Shown here piece after piece: positions 2,819 through 20,426 of a stretch of DNA of 38,696 nt. This DNA is from Deltaproteobacteria bacterium (GTDB lineage: Bacteria > Desulfobacterota > Syntrophia > Syntrophales > UBA2192), in contig JAAYEC010000032.1 of the NCBI GenBank assembly GCA_012728915.1, forward strand, positions 1-38,696, written 5' to 3'. Under the pieces are notes generated by a model. It ran no database searches. It worked only from the letters and a program-made list of their open reading frames with translations, and was not told the DNA's origin. The position numbers were made by a program, and so were the translations under genes. How positions within the stretch are numbered: the first letter of the stretch is position 1; the number at the start of each line of letters is the position of its first letter.

Positions 2819-3422
2819 AGAGCAGTATAAGGCCCGTCCACGTCACCTTGTCCTGTACGGGGAAGCGCAGCAGGGGCAGCTTTGCCTTTTCGAGCGTGCC
2901 GATGACGTCGATGCCCATGGCCTCCATGGATGGCCTGGCCCGGAAGGGATGACGGCAGTGGCCCTCGGGTTCCAGAGCGATGCAGGTCTCGCAGAGCCTG
3001 CAGCAGCCCCCGATGAGACCCGTGGCGAAGCGGTAGCCGGCCTCGAAGCAGAGCCTCTCGCCAAGGTTGATGAGTTCATGAAGTACCCGCGCGGGGTCGA
3101 AGACAGCCCGCGTCCTCCCTTTTGCTTTCCTATGCAGGGGCACGCTCAGCTGTACGATAAGCGCCCTGTCGTAGCGGGCGAGGGCGTCCCGAAAATCCGC
3201 TACAGACGGAAGGTAAGGCGGGCACATGAGGTTCTTGCCGTAGGAGTCGCAGATGGGAACCTGGCACTTGAGGCGCACGCGCTCGTCGACGATCACATCG
3301 GCGGCCTTGATGACCCGGACCTCGGAGGCGCCCTTCTTCTTGAGGGTGTCGATGACCCTGCTGAGGCGCGGAGCCGGTTTCTGCGCGGGGTTTTTGGCCG
3401 GCGTCTTCGATGACTCTTTCAA
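2817..3422 (-). CDS. DUF2284 family metal-binding protein
   Basis: The 201-residue product has the DUF2284 hallmark CDSYGKNLMCPPYLP (about residues 58-72), followed by a second Cys cluster in GGCCRLCETC and GHCRHPF. The cysteines most probably bind an Fe-S cluster or another metal; the family's reaction is not known. The N-terminus (about 20 residues) is rich in Lys, Pro and Ala and looks unstructured. The first codon is TTG at 3422, chosen because AAGGA sits 7 nt upstream; no ATG alternative keeps the conserved region with a ribosome site. The gene lies 99 bp downstream of the M24 peptidase on the same strand and may be cotranscribed. Its stop codon overlaps a hairpin repeat. Confidence 0.85.
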   Translation of the reverse strand: MKESSKTPAKNPAQKPAPRLSRVIDTLKKKGASEVRVIKAADVIVDERVRLKCQVPICDSYGKNLMCPPYLPSVADFRDALARYDRALIVQLSVPLHRKAKGRTRAVFDPARVLHELINLGERLCFEAGYRFATGLIGGCCRLCETCIALEPEGHCRHPFRARPSMEAMGIDVIGTLEKAKLPLLRFPVQDKVTWTGLILL

Positions 3423-5506: not shown

Positions 5507-6478
5507 TCACAGGCACCCCTCCAGGTACCGCTTGGCGATGTCCTCGGCCACGGAATAGGGATCGACCTCCTTCTTCATCACCCTGTCGATCATCCCTTCC
5601 ATTTCGCCGCTGCCGATGAGCTTCTGGAGGACCGGCTCGAGGATACATGCCCGGATGGCCTCGTTGAGCTCGACCGCGGCCTTGCGGCGCATCCTGCTGC
5701 CGATCATGTCCTTCTGGACGAGGTGCTGGTGATGTTCCTCGATCTTGTTGGCGATGTCTTCCAGCGCCTTGTTGAACCCTGTGGGCTCGAAGGCGCTTTC
5801 TACTTTCATGATGGGCGGCCGCCAGCCCCCCTGGAAGGAGGACGGCGGGGCCATGTCGAGCATCGCCATCAGCTCTCGCGAGAGCTTGGAGGATCCCTCG
5901 CGGTCGGCCTTGTTGACGACGAATATGTCGGCGATCTCGAGGATGCCCGCCTTGATCGCCTGAATCTCGTCCCCCATGCCCGGAACGAGCACCACGAGGA
6001 CCGTGTGGGAGTGGTTGATGATGTCCACCTCCTGCTGGCCCGTACCGACGGTCTCGACGATGACGATGTCCTTGCCCAGGACATCCATCACGTGGATGGC
6101 GTCACCCACGGCCTTCGCGAGGCCGCCCAGGGCCCCGCGCGTGGCAAGGCTCCGGACGAACACACCCGGGTCCTCGGCGTGGCGCTGCATGCGGATGCGG
6201 TCACCGAGAATGGCGCCCCCCGTGAAGGGGCTGGTGGGATCGACGGCCAGCACACCGACGGTCTTGCCCTTTTTACGGAACATGTCGATGAGGCCGTCGG
6301 TCAGCGTGCTCTTTCCAGCGCCCGGCGAGCCGGTGAGGCCGATGACGTGCGCCTTCCCCGTGAGCGGGAAGAGGTGCTTGATGGTGGTCTTCGCCTCGGG
6401 GATGCGATCTTCCAGATTACGGATGAGGCGAGAGGCGGCGCGAACGTCGCCGTCCTTGATCTTCTTTGTGGTTTCCAT
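5507..6478 (-). CDS. meaB: methylmalonyl-CoA mutase-associated GTPase MeaB
   Basis: MeaB is a G3E-type P-loop GTPase that binds B12-dependent acyl-CoA mutases, gates transfer of adenosylcobalamin and protects the cofactor from inactivation. The 323-residue product has a Walker A GSPGAGKST (50-58), the DPTSPFTGGAILGDRIRM switch region, the family segment VETVGTGQQEVD, the base-recognition motif NKAD, and the C-terminal dimerisation helices. Length is usual for the family. Its ATG at 6478 follows the stop of the small mutase subunit by 15 nt, with AAGGA 9 nt upstream, so the three genes are one operon. Because the neighbouring mutase has isobutyryl-CoA-type residues, this MeaB may serve that enzyme rather than a methylmalonyl-CoA mutase. 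Confidence 0.95.
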   Translation of the reverse strand: METTKKIKDGDVRAASRLIRNLEDRIPEAKTTIKHLFPLTGKAHVIGLTGSPGAGKSTLTDGLIDMFRKKGKTVGVLAVDPTSPFTGGAILGDRIRMQRHAEDPGVFVRSLATRGALGGLAKAVGDAIHVMDVLGKDIVIVETVGTGQQEVDIINHSHTVLVVLVPGMGDEIQAIKAGILEIADIFVVNKADREGSSKLSRELMAMLDMAPPSSFQGGWRPPIMKVESAFEPTGFNKALEDIANKIEEHHQHLVQKDMIGSRMRRKAAVELNEAIRACILEPVLQKLIGSGEMEGMIDRVMKKEVDPYSVAEDIAKRYLEGCL

Positions 6479-6493
6479 TCCGGATGTCCTTCG

Positions 6494-6898
6494 CTAGTTT
6501 CTCGGCTTTACGTTTGTGTTGATCCAGTCGATGATCGACTCCAGGGTGGCGCCGGGCGTGAAGATCGCTTTCAGGCCGGCGTCGTACAGAAGCTGGAAGT
6601 CCTGGTCGGGGATGATGCCGCCGCCGATGACGGTGATGTCATCGACCCCTTTTTCCTTCATGAGCTTTGTGACGGCCGGGTAGAGGTAGCGGTGGGCCCC
6701 GGAGAGGCAGCTCAGCCCCAGCAGGTCCACGTCCTCCTGGATGACCGCCGATACGATCTGCTCGGGCGTCTGGTGACAGCCCGTGTAGATCACCTCGTAG
6801 CCGGCATCCCGGAAGCAGCGGGCCAGGACCCTGGCGCCGCGGTCGTGCCCGTCGAGACCCGGCTTCGCAACCATAACACGCAGTCTTTTCTCTGCCAT
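6494..6898 (-). CDS. B12-dependent acyl-CoA mutase small subunit (cobalamin-binding domain)
   Basis: This 134-residue protein is the free-standing B12-binding domain of a methylmalonyl/isobutyryl-CoA mutase. The base-off/His-on signature DxHxxG is present as D16-G-H18-D-R-G21; the family segments GLSCLSGAH and GGGIIPDQD contact the nucleotide tail of the cofactor. Length and organisation match McmA2 or IcmB proteins, where catalytic and cobalamin domains are separate chains. A strong AGGAGG precedes the ATG. The large subunit lies 18 bp upstream and meaB 15 bp downstream. The sequence of this domain does not by itself decide the substrate; that rests on the large subunit. Confidence 0.93.
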   Translation of the reverse strand: MAEKRLRVMVAKPGLDGHDRGARVLARCFRDAGYEVIYTGCHQTPEQIVSAVIQEDVDLLGLSCLSGAHRYLYPAVTKLMKEKGVDDITVIGGGIIPDQDFQLLYDAGLKAIFTPGATLESIIDWINTNVKPRN

Positions 6899-6916
6899 CG
6901 TCGTGTCCCCTCCTTC

Positions 6917-8605
6917 CTAGTAGAGTCCCGGGTCGCGGTATTCGCCGTAGACCTCGCGGTAGACGTCACAGATCTCCTGCACGGAGCAAAGGGCCTTGAC
7001 GGCCTCGATGCAGTAGGGCATGACGTTCTCACCCTTCTTGCAGGCCGCCTTGAGGTCGTCGAGGCACTTCTTGGCTGCCTTGCCGTCGCGCTTGCGGCGG
7101 ACGGCGTTGAGCCGCTCGATCTGCTCGGTCTCGATCCTGTCATCGATCTCGAGGAAGGGGATGGACTCTTTCTCGGTGGAGACGTACTTGTTGACACCGA
7201 CCATGATCTTCTCGCCGGCATCGATCTGGCGCTGGAACTTGTAGGCCGCATCGGAGATCTCGAGCTGGGGGAAGCCCTTCTCGATGGCGGCGACCATGCC
7301 GCCCATTTCATCTATCTTGTGGATGTACTCCCAGGCCTGCTTTTCCATCTCGTTGGTGAGCGCTTCGACAAAGTAGGAGCCGGCCAGCGGATCGATCGTG
7401 TTGGCCGCGCCCGTTTCCTCGGCGATGAGCTGCTGGGTGCGCAGGGCGATCTGGACGGCGAAGTCGGAGGGCAGGCACCACACCTCGTCGAGCGAGTTGG
7501 TGTGCAGCGACTGGGTCCCGCCGAGAACGGCCGCCAGGGCCTCCGTCGCCGTGCGGACGACGTTGTTGTAGGGCTGCTGAGCGGTAAGCGAGCAGCCTGC
7601 CGTCTGCGTGTGGAACCGCATCCACCAGGAGCGCTCGTCCTTGGATTTGTACCTCTCCGTCATGGCCTTGGCCCAGATCCGGCGGGCCGCCCTCATCTTG
7701 CAGATCTCCTCGAAGAAGTCGATGTGGGAGTTGAAGAAGAAGGAGAGCCTGGGGGCGAAGGAGTCGATGTCGAGTTTCTTGCGGCGAAGCACGTCTTCGA
7801 CGTACTCCATGCCGTCACGCAGCGTGAAGGCCAGTTCCTGGACCGCCGTGGAGCCCGCCTCGCGGATGTGGTACCCGGAGATCGAGATCGTGTTCCACTT
7901 GGGGACCTTCAGGGTGCCGAATTCGACGGTGTCGCTGATGAGCTTCACGGACGGATCGGGCGGGCACATGAGGGTCTTCTGGGCGATGAACTCCTTGAGC
8001 ATGTCGTTCTGGATCGTGCCGCCGATCTTCGTCAGGGGGATCCCCTGGATCTCGGCCGCGGCGCAGTACATGGCCCAGAGGGCCGTCGCCGGCGGATTGA
8101 TCGTCATCGAAGTCGTGATCTTGTCGAGAGGAACGCCCTTGGTGAGAACGAGGAAGTCTTCGAGGGTGTCGATGGCCACGCCGCACTTGCCGCACTCGCC
8201 CCGGGCCTTGGGGGAGTCGGTGTCATACCCCATGAGGGTGGGGAAGTCGAAGGCCGTGCTGAGGCCCGTCTGGCCTTCCTTCAGGAGCAAATGCCACCGC
8301 GCATTGGTGGTGGCGGCATCTCCCATTCCCGAGAACATGCGGAAGGTCCAGTACTTGCCGCGATAGCCGGTCACCTGGTTGCCGCGGGTGTACGGGTACT
8401 GCCCGGGATAGCTGATATCCCGCGCAAAATCCATATCCTTGATGTCATCGGGGGTGTAGAGACGTTTGATGGGAAGATCGGAAACCGTGGACCACTGGGC
8501 ATCCGGCTTCTGATCGGGCCATTTGGAGACGAGTTTCTTGACCTCGTCCTCCCACTTCTGGCGCATCTTGCTGGACGACTCGAGAACTTCTTTTGCGAAA
8601 TACAC
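6917..8605 (-). CDS. B12-dependent acyl-CoA mutase large subunit, isobutyryl-CoA mutase-like active site
   Basis: The protein (562 aa) is the catalytic TIM-barrel subunit of the methylmalonyl-CoA mutase family, as shown by PYTRG, TFRMFSGMGD, GLSTAFDFPT, GTIQND, SISGYHIREAG, APRLSFFF, FHTQTAG, LTAQQP and GGTQSLHTN. It lacks a C-terminal B12 domain, which is encoded by the next gene. The residues that bind the methylmalonyl carboxylate in the Propionibacterium enzyme, Tyr89 and Arg207, are F91 (in RMFSGM) and Q209 (in FIAQKT) here; Phe and Gln are the known isobutyryl-CoA mutase residues. The catalytic His (H246) and Gln199 are kept. The GTG at 8605 was chosen as start because AAGGAGGGAGG lies just upstream; a TTG at 8644 would add 13 residues. 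Automatic annotation would call this methylmalonyl-CoA mutase. Family identity is certain; substrate is inference. Confidence 0.92.
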   Translation of the reverse strand: MYFAKEVLESSSKMRQKWEDEVKKLVSKWPDQKPDAQWSTVSDLPIKRLYTPDDIKDMDFARDISYPGQYPYTRGNQVTGYRGKYWTFRMFSGMGDAATTNARWHLLLKEGQTGLSTAFDFPTLMGYDTDSPKARGECGKCGVAIDTLEDFLVLTKGVPLDKITTSMTINPPATALWAMYCAAAEIQGIPLTKIGGTIQNDMLKEFIAQKTLMCPPDPSVKLISDTVEFGTLKVPKWNTISISGYHIREAGSTAVQELAFTLRDGMEYVEDVLRRKKLDIDSFAPRLSFFFNSHIDFFEEICKMRAARRIWAKAMTERYKSKDERSWWMRFHTQTAGCSLTAQQPYNNVVRTATEALAAVLGGTQSLHTNSLDEVWCLPSDFAVQIALRTQQLIAEETGAANTIDPLAGSYFVEALTNEMEKQAWEYIHKIDEMGGMVAAIEKGFPQLEISDAAYKFQRQIDAGEKIMVGVNKYVSTEKESIPFLEIDDRIETEQIERLNAVRRKRDGKAAKKCLDDLKAACKKGENVMPYCIEAVKALCSVQEICDVYREVYGEYRDPGLY

Positions 8606-8708
8606 GTTTCCTCCCTCCTTGTCCGTGAATTCTGAAAGATTCAAGCCATATACACTCCTTGAAACGTATTCTTCCCTGAGACCCGTGAATGACAGACCCG
8701 ATCACTCC

Positions 8709-14098: not shown

Positions 14099-14935
14099 TC
14101 ATGAACGCAGGGAGGTCAGGATGTTCCGCACGATCGCCTCGAAGGCCTTCGCCGAGGGCGAGCCCGCCTTCGACTTGACGAAGGGAAGCCCCCGGTCGGC
14201 CATCTCGACCAGATCGGGCTCGAAGGGGATCCGACCCAGGAAGGGCACGCCCAGGTCCTTCGCGGCCTTCTCGCCGCCGCCTTTCTTGAAGATCGGGGTC
14301 TCCTTGCCGCAGTGCGGGCAGACGAAACCGCTCATGTTCTCAATGATTCCGAGGACGGGAATGTTCAGCTGGCGCGCGAAGAAGACGCTCTTGCGCGCGT
14401 CGAGGATCGAGACGTCCTGGGGGGTGGTCACGATCACGGCGCCGCTCACGTCCGGGATGAGCTGGCAGGCGCTCAACGGCTCGTCTCCGGTGCCGGGGGG
14501 GGAGTCGACGATCAGGAAGTCCAGCTCGCCCCAGTTGATCTCCTCGAGGAACTGCCGGATGGCGGACATTTTCAGGGGGCCGCGCCAGACGATCGGCGTA
14601 TCCGGGTTCGGGGCCGCGAAGGAGATGCTTGCCGCCTTGAGGTTGGGCAGCACCCGGACCGGTTCGATGCCGTTCTCCGAGCCGATGAACCCCTCGCCCT
14701 CGACGCCCAGCATCTTCGCGATGTTGGGGCCGTGCAGGTCGATGTCCACGAGGCCCACGTCCCGGCCCGTCAGGGCCAGCGTGTAGGACAGGTTGACGGA
14801 AACGGAGGTCTTTCCCACCCCTCCCTTGCCGCTCATGACGATGATCTTGTGCTTGATCCGGGACATCCGTTTCTTGAGTTCTTTGTCCCGGTCCTCTTCG
14901 TTCTTCTTCGGGTCCGTGATCTGTATCGGCTTCAT
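14099..14935 (-). CDS. mrp: Mrp/NBP35 family Fe-S carrier ATPase
   Basis: Mrp proteins are dimeric P-loop ATPases that carry 4Fe-4S clusters. The product (278 aa) has a deviant Walker [11 protein letters not shown] (35-44), the signature [26 protein letters not shown], and a CxxC pair in FVCPHCGKE that bridges a cluster between two subunits. The Lys-rich N-terminus ([14 protein letters not shown]) is variable in the family. The ATG at 14935 starts the homologous part; GGAG lies 17 nt upstream, an unusually long distance, so the start is a little uncertain. It is the third ATPase of the MinD/Mrp group in a row; in the Desulfovibrio ORP cluster a Mrp protein also accompanies two MinD-type ATPases. 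Confidence 0.92.
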
Positions 14936-14967
14936 GGGTTGACGGGTTGAAACTCCTTTCTGATGGT

Positions 14968-15858
14968 TTATGACGGCCGGCGGTCCTCGACCGCCGGTTC
15001 GGAATCGATCCGGGACCAGGCGGAGCGGATCGCCGCGGCGACCTCGTCGTCCGCCGTCTCGACGTAGGGAACGGCGCGTATGAGGGATTCGGCCACCCGC
15101 TTCGAGAAGGGGATCCGCCCCAGGAAGCTCACCCCCTCCCGGGCGCAGAGCTCTTCGATATCGCGGCTGCGCTCCGGGTTGATGTCCCACTTGTTGATCA
15201 CGATGCCCGCGGGGATCCGGAAGTGCCGGGTCAGCTCGACCACGCGCCGCGCGTCGTGGATCCCCGACAGGGTCGGCTCCGTGACGATGACGGCGAGGTT
15301 CGTGTCGGTCAGCGAGGCCAGCACGGGGCATCCGATCCCCGGGGGACCGTCGATGATCACATAATCCAAGCCGCGCGTTTCGGCAAGTTCTTTCGCCTTC
15401 TGCCGGATGCAGGCGACGAGCTTTCCCGAATTCTCCTGGGCGATCCCGAGCCTTGCGTGGACGAAAGGCCCGTAGGCCGTCTCCGAGAGGTACCACTCGC
15501 CGCAGAGGTTTTCCAGCATCTCGACGGCCTCGACGGGGCAGATGCGGGCGCACAGCCCGCAGCCCTCGCAGGCCAGGGGGTTGACGGCGAAGCGGTCGTC
15601 GGCCCCGTGGATGGCGTCGAACCGGCACAGCTCGGCGCACTCGCCGCAGGCGATGCAGGCCTCCGGGTCGATCCGCGCGACATGGCCGCTCCGGAACTCG
15701 TGCGTCTCCACGACGCGCGGGTTGAGCAGGAGGTGCAGGTCCGCCGCGTCGACGTCGCAGTCCACCATGACCTTGTTCTTTGCCAGCGCCGCAAGCGACG
15801 CCGTGAAGATCGTCTTACCCGTGCCGCCTTTGCCGCTGATGACCACGATCTGCTTCAT
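14968..15858 (-). CDS. MinD-superfamily P-loop ATPase with inserted ferredoxin domain (second copy)
   Basis: The 296-residue protein starts with [16 protein letters not shown], the deviant Walker A of MinD/ParA ATPases. A two-cluster ferredoxin is inserted at about residues 65-115: [11 protein letters not shown] and [12 protein letters not shown]. The ATPase fold resumes with [23 protein letters not shown] and INKWDIN. It is a paralogue of the gene just upstream, which overlaps it by 44 nt; AGGA lies 6 nt before the ATG. The pair resembles DVU2103/DVU2104 of the Desulfovibrio ORP cluster, which is named from family knowledge, not from a search. A heterodimer of the two is likely. Function is unknown: cluster insertion or ATP-driven electron transfer are both possible. 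Confidence 0.9.
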
Positions 15859-19455: not shown

Positions 19456-19553
19456 AAAGGGGGTGATCGCCAATCACAAGGAGCCCGGGATGGGCGGTTC
19501 GAGGCTGTCGGACGGCAACGTAACAGACAACCAGTGCGCAGGGAGGAGAATCA

Positions 19554-20321
19554 ATGGAATACAAAACCGTCATGCTGGACAGAAAGGACGGGATTGCCGT
19601 CTTGACGCTGAACCGTCCCGATGTCCTCAATTCCGTCAATATGGAGATGAGGTCGGAGATTCTCGGGATCCTGGAGAGTCTCGAAAAAGACCCCGGCGTC
19701 CGGGTCCTCATCGTGACGGGCGCCGGACGCGCATTCTGCGCGGGAGCCGACATCAACGAGTTCAAGGAGTCAGGCAAGGACCCGGCAATGCAGAAGTTCC
19801 TGAACAAGAAGCTCATCGCCATGGCCAGGGCTTACTATGAATTCGAAAAACCGGTCATCGGGGCAATCAACGGCGTGTCGGCAGGAGACGGGTCCCAGTG
19901 GGTCCTTGCCTTCGACCTCAATGTCGCCTCGGAAAAGGCCCGCTTCGGGTGGCCGGCGACGTATCTCGGCATCCTTTGACCCTACGGAATCATCCGGCTT
20001 CCGGCGGAAGTCGGCCGTTACCGTGCCAAGGAGGTGCTCATGACGAGAAAATTCGTCAGCGCCGAGGAAGCGGTCCGCTGGGGTTTTATCAGCAGGGTTG
20101 TTCCCCATGACAAGTTGATGGAAGAAGCCTTCGCGCTGGCCGAGGAGATCAAGAAAATGCCGCCCCTGTCGCTCCGGGCGGTCAAGAAGGCAGTGAACCA
20201 GGGCATGCAGGGCTACGACTTCGCCGAATACATCATGGACAGCCTGCAGAAGAGCGAGGACGCAGCGGAGGGCACGAGCGCCTTCCTCGAGAAGAGGGAG
20301 CCTGCGTTCAAGGGCAGGTAG
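19554..20321 (+). CDS. crotonase/enoyl-CoA hydratase-family protein with one in-frame UGA (codon 142)
   Basis: The 255-codon frame has the exact length of a crotonase but contains TGA at 19977-19979 (codon 142). Both halves are otherwise intact and in one frame: GRAFCAGADI (oxyanion hole, residues 59-67), NGVSAGDGSQW, FGWPATYLGIL, then after the TGA PYGIIRLPAEVGRYRAKEVLMT and a complete C-terminus ending at TAG. The two catalytic Glu of hydratases are replaced: Q115 and A135, so simple hydration is unlikely. A hairpin follows the TGA (next entry). Explanations: a recent nonsense mutation of TGG or TGC, a selenocysteine codon, or reading as two chains, since AAGGAGGTGCTC precedes an in-frame ATG at 20034. 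A good ribosome site (GGGAGGAG) precedes the start. Confidence 0.75.
19994..20014 (+). promoter_or_regulatory. hairpin downstream of the in-frame UGA (possible SECIS-like element)
   Basis: CCGGCTTCC and GGAAGTCGG form a 9-bp stem (one G-U pair) with a GGC loop. The stem begins 14 nt after the UGA and the loop 23 nt after it, within the range of bacterial selenocysteine insertion elements, which lie in the coding region just after the UGA with G in the loop. Coding constraint could also produce it by chance in GC-rich DNA. Confidence 0.4.
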
Positions 20322-20391: not shown

Positions 20392-20426
20392 AAAAAGCCC
20401 CGGGTCAAGTGAGCCGGGGCTTTCTT
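20392..20426. terminator. bidirectional intrinsic terminator
   Basis: AAAGCCCCGG and CCGGGGCTTT pair perfectly around a 10-nt loop, with T-rich flank on the plus side and A-rich flank on the other. It lies between the convergent crotonase-family gene and the C_GCAxxG_C_C gene and can serve both. Confidence 0.85.

Follow-up and report, generated by a model that had tools for sequence, protein, structure and literature searches.

Does the in-frame UGA at codon 142 of a crotonase-family gene encode selenocysteine (Sec), mark a nonsense mutation, or divide the gene into two? The initial annotation of the 38,696-nucleotide stretch of DNA analysed here (the window) had left these three readings side by side. 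Reading of the sequence confirmed that the frame at 19554-20321 is open except for this single UGA, and that a 9-bp hairpin starts 14 nt 3′ of the TGA. The annotated AAGGAGG in front of an in-frame ATG is also present (20028-20034), but this ATG lies at 20040 and not at 20034, where the codon is GTG. The elements of the locus are:

19540-19547, forward strand: Shine-Dalgarno-like AGGGAGGA of the Sec-crotonase gene, read directly from the sequence
19554-20321, forward strand: Sec-crotonase gene of 255 codons with putative Sec at 142 and a TAG stop (PF00378, E = 1.8e-56)
19977-19979, forward strand: UGA codon, putatively read as Sec142; TGA in seven distinct orthologous genes including that of the window, TGT (Cys) in L045 and L090
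19994-20014, forward strand: putative bacterial SECIS (bSECIS) hairpin, stem 19994-20002 with 20006-20014 and apical loop GGC at 20003-20005 (criteria of PMC13188914)
20394-20423, no strand assigned: 10-bp inverted repeat AAAGCCCCGG/CCGGGGCTTT, a probable terminator 3′ of the gene, read directly from the sequence

The inverted repeat at 20394-20423 was absent from the consensus hairpin scan; its loop exceeds the limit of that scan.

Codon 142 among orthologues and selection on both sides

Orthologues were sought by a pattern-based scan that took a single genome from each GTDB species, and by further searches of all 155 available genomes of the order and of 395 of the phylum (the class-level search comprised the same 155 genomes as the order-level one). 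Eight distinct orthologues including that of the window were obtained, the relatives being 68-91% identical, and seven of them possess TGA at codon 142. That six further distinct orthologues, all from other species and separate assemblies, have TGA at this very codon is more than chance. The eighth orthologue, L045 (the same as L076; 72% identical), carries TGT (Cys) exactly at codon 142, and TGT is also found in L090, an outgroup homologue from another family of the phylum (51% identical, motif LGIACPYALIRL). Exchange of TGA and TGT at one codon among homologues is the standard Sec/Cys signature. Farther crotonases hold Pro, Ala, Gly or Thr at this position and never Trp, and the comparison thus favours Sec on the very point, Cys against Trp in homologues, that had been proposed as a check.

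In the tree, the Cys form L090 lies outside, the Sec form L046 branches next, and the Cys form L045 is nested among Sec forms, the inner supports being only 77-83. From this order Cys seems to be ancestral at position 142 and Sec to have been gained later, and one lineage (L045) probably returned from Sec to Cys, with the reservation that the inner supports are moderate. No further close relative was found in the order to which the Cys carrier L090 belongs, and the matches listed from the plasmid searches included only relatives below 45% identity. One otherwise conserved Sec-crotonase gene, that of L042, has TAA at codon 3 (ME*KT, 3001-3012), which reflects either use of a rare start codon farther downstream or an error in the sequence.

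Conversion of a Cys or Trp codon to TGA in a dying gene, or an error of assembly, requires only a one-base change from TGC or TGG, and a related genome (G002) does hold a decayed copy of the gene. That remnant (L034, 1501-1830) starts just after the UGA and has frameshifts, a TAG and a truncation; it shows what a dead copy of the Sec-crotonase gene looks like. The genes with TGA are different: the same TGA recurs in seven distinct genes from separate assemblies, with pN/pS of 0.20 before the UGA and 0.19 after the restart ATG (flanks 0.17-0.20). The claim that a single base change explains the TGA equally well therefore fails against the homologues, and we regard a nonsense mutation or assembly error as barely credible. 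The other reading without Sec, a stop at 142 and a restart at ATG 20040 giving two subunits, draws its support from the AAGGAGG, which in the window ends 5 nt before that ATG. Yet no other part of the gene is as constrained at the protein level as the stretch from UGA to restart (pN 0.020, pN/pS 0.039), where synonymous changes still occur, which indicates that this stretch is translated in frame. Moreover, AAGGAGG encodes a conserved Ala-Lys-Glu and has decayed to AAAGAAG in relatives, so that on sequence grounds the restart Shine-Dalgarno is a by-product of these codons and is itself not conserved. As the Cys orthologues are also single unbroken genes, a split gene is very improbable.

The downstream hairpin and the decoding machinery

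Homologues with an unrelated residue and without a conserved hairpin had been named as a refuting outcome, but the hairpin is kept in 7/7 UGA orthologues, with stems of 8-9 bp, loops of GGC, GGG, GGT or CGGGA, a spacing of 22-23 nt and MFE values from -8.5 to -14.1 kcal/mol. Scored against the published bSECIS rules (loop of 3-9 nt, stem of 4-16 bp, G in the first two loop positions, spacing of 16-37 nt and MFE <= -7.5; PMC13188914), all seven met the loop, stem, G-position, spacing and MFE requirements. Standard pairs occupy 95% of the pair cells in the stem alignment. When compensatory changes were looked for in the hairpin, no double ones were seen; all pair changes are one-sided and keep the pairing. 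The lowest synonymous divergence of the gene among the seven UGA genes falls exactly at codons 146-153, coinciding with the hairpin (gene-wide permutation P = 0.003; synonymous-site test of the hairpin codons alone, P = 6e-5). This joint test is stronger than synonymous shuffles of single genes, of which 3-10% produced a helix as long as the observed one (P 0.03-0.10) because the Arg-Leu-Pro-x-Glu-Val codons favour a hairpin. The outgroup Cys gene L090 is without such a hairpin. The Cys orthologue L045 still has one of 7 bp, which we count against Sec decoding; it may reflect a recent reversion to Cys or merely the conserved encoded residues.

A search of the window's genome for selA, selB, selC and selD, the check recommended at the outset, found all four: selA (609 bits), selB (370 bits), selD (385 bits) and tRNA-Sec (selC) with anticodon UCA. 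All Sec-crotonase carriers have selB, and all except G003 (88% complete) have selA; G002, the genome with the decayed remnant, retains selA and selB as well. The selD gene of the window's genome has its own in-frame TGA in HGAGUACK. This Sec form of SelD shares with the Sec-crotonase the in-frame UGA, the short downstream hairpin, the apex CC-GGN-GG and the Sec machinery, but it is an unrelated protein and its distance from UGA to loop is ~17 nt instead of 22-23.

tRNA-Trp is known to read through UGA at a background level, and insertion of Trp, or leaky near-cognate readthrough without selenium, could in principle also complete the frame. TGA is, however, the stop of 7/11 recognised window genes and hence an ordinary stop that has not been reassigned, Trp never occupies the position in homologues, where Cys or, farther out, Pro/Ala/Gly/Thr is found, and the SECIS-type hairpin is conserved; we therefore give this explanation very little weight. 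Sec decoding is supported by the Cys homologues, selA-D, the conserved hairpin and the recurrence of TGA in independent assemblies. The sequence comparison itself bears out a conserved UGA, its exchange with Cys, a conserved SECIS-type hairpin, a complete machinery and purifying selection on both sides, whereas decoding of UGA-142 as Sec, giving a full-length crotonase-fold selenoprotein, remains an inference, held with high confidence in the absence of protein or read data. SelB with Sec-tRNA (anticodon UCA) would recognise the hairpin just downstream of UGA-142, and the codon would then be decoded as Sec to yield the 255-residue product.

Fold and active site of the product

The product matched the ECH_1 profile (PF00378, E = 1.8e-56), and its predicted model (pLDDT 91.4) matched crotonases over the whole length, the best match being 3pea (Z 35.6). 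By profile and model, it is a genuine crotonase. It shares the fold and the oxyanion-hole segments with enoyl-CoA hydratases (rat ECH, E. coli PaaF) but differs in the catalytic Glu pair (E109/E129 of PaaF; Glu144/Glu164 of rat), which is replaced by Gln115/Ala135. Replacement of both glutamates indicates that the product is probably not an ordinary enoyl-CoA hydratase (EC 4.2.1.17). Its profile score is below every NCBIfam cut-off among the matches listed.

Opposite Sec142 in the alignment stands Pro171 or Gly172 of rat ECH, the register being uncertain by one residue owing to a loop gap, and Gly172 is among the listed catalytic residues of that enzyme (PMC4922564). By inference, the active-site loop that precedes helix 143-153 carries Sec142 at the place of Pro171-Gly172. 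PaaG (1,2-epoxyphenylacetyl-CoA isomerase), a member of another subfamily, has its catalytic Asp136 (title of entry 6sla) in the adjoining alignment column, with a carboxylate in place of the putative selenol. With the two hydratase glutamates gone, Sec142 may take over as the reactive group, a selenolate nucleophile or base, on the acyl-CoA thioester. Asp145 of 4-chlorobenzoyl-CoA dehalogenase sits in the same loop as Sec142.

A different role, which would leave the decoding untouched, is that of a redox switch or selenenylsulfide partner, e.g. with Cys62, instead of an acyl-CoA catalyst. Many selenoproteins are redox proteins (PMC13188914), and every member of the Sec clade, like both Cys homologues, retains Cys62 (FCAGAD). 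FCAGAD is, however, common in ordinary crotonases, e.g. E. coli PaaG and L049, and the position of Sec at the active-site loop, where the usual glutamates are gone, points to catalysis, which makes a redox role unlikely without dismissing it.

Genomic context and proposed reaction

The Sec-crotonase gene stands alone in the window, and its immediate neighbours indicate no substrate. Synteny around the gene is conserved only with G003 (DUF6125 and C_GCAxxG_C_C neighbours); elsewhere the gene moves about. Separate from the gene, a cluster that may be functionally linked to it lies 11 kb away on the opposite strand:

5507-8644, reverse strand: MeaB (5507-6478), B12-binding subunit region (6497-6916) and methylmalonyl-CoA mutase (6917-8644)

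The methylmalonyl-CoA mutase of this cluster shares 85% identity with its counterpart in L044, where the orthologous cluster of mutase, B12 subunit and MeaB immediately precedes the Sec-crotonase gene on the same strand. In L094 (1787-11000, reverse strand), mutase, B12 subunit, MeaB, a CoA ligase, MmgE/PrpD, the Cys-crotonase (the outgroup Cys member) and a TRAP transporter are clustered. The order mutase-MeaB-crotonase is thus found in L044 and, with the ligase and PrpD genes in between, in L094, but not in the window. The Sec-crotonase gene has an mmdA-like carboxyltransferase gene upstream in L042, and the Cys orthologue of L045 is flanked by genes for acyl-CoA dehydrogenases, for a thiolase and for a CoA ligase. 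The L094 cluster resembles an operon for the uptake and catabolism of some branched dicarboxylate of unknown identity.

The gene order in L044 is that of E. coli scpA-argK-scpB, in which ScpB (YgfG) is a methylmalonyl-CoA decarboxylase. Because one Sec member and the outgroup Cys member occur in mutase/MeaB clusters like this operon, we propose that the product decarboxylates (substituted) malonyl-CoA or is a related acyl-CoA enzyme, Sec being its reactive group. The assignment, decarboxylase activity included, is inferred and tentative as to substrate class, and we hold it to be somewhat less probable than its converse. By analogy with ScpB, the likeliest reaction would follow that of a B12 mutase: a branched or substituted malonyl-CoA would be decarboxylated or undergo a related step. 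ScpB is also of the crotonase family and has Pro-Tyr in the same loop, but it is only 27% identical to the product, lacks Cys or Sec at this place and differs in loop length. BLAST pairs its Pro-Tyr with P143-Y144, whereas MAFFT pairs Tyr140, which we take to be an active-site residue, with Sec142. The fold comparison listed 50 structures, and the absence of ScpB from them excludes nothing.

The annotation's remark that no selenocysteine crotonase is known was nearly right. A 2022 review does list a 'Crotonase/enoyl-CoA hydratase family protein' selenoprotein (PMC9312934; KAA1296466.1, PRK06023), but a review of May 2026 files this entry as 'DsbA-like protein form 2' with PF01323 and motif DxxUP (PMC13188914), as opposed to PF00378 and GILUPYG in the window product; the two have the name in common, and a distant relation is not excluded. 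No PF00378 entry appears among the 119 prokaryotic selenoprotein families of the May 2026 catalogue (PMC13188914), and no Sec-crotonase among the nine new families of the deep-Sep paper (PMC12013277), both statements leaving aside subscription literature, preprints and supplementary tables. It is possible, though by no means assured, that the product is the first selenoprotein to have a genuine crotonase fold and that its Sec is the catalytic group of a non-redox acyl-CoA reaction, e.g. that of a Sec-dependent alkylmalonyl-CoA decarboxylase acting after a B12 mutase in syntrophic bacteria. The majority of known selenoproteins act as thiol-redox or metal enzymes, and Sec at a crotonase active-site loop would extend Sec chemistry to acyl-CoA esters. 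By inference, the Sec-crotonase may also be relevant to the identity of the enzyme that, in syntrophic bacteria of this kind, processes malonyl-CoA products of B12 mutases. Standard gene calling ends at codon 141, so that in genomes of syntrophic Desulfobacterota the Sec-crotonases have probably been recorded as gene fragments.

Two further genes of the window were observed. A C_GCAxxG_C_C family protein (PF09719/TIGR01909; 20472-21098, reverse strand) adjoins the Sec-crotonase gene, as it does in G003, and this family has known selenoprotein members. The gene at 14099-15640 (reverse strand) encodes a NUBPL/MrpORP-like ATPase domain at residues 258-508, scoring below the MrpORP cut-off.
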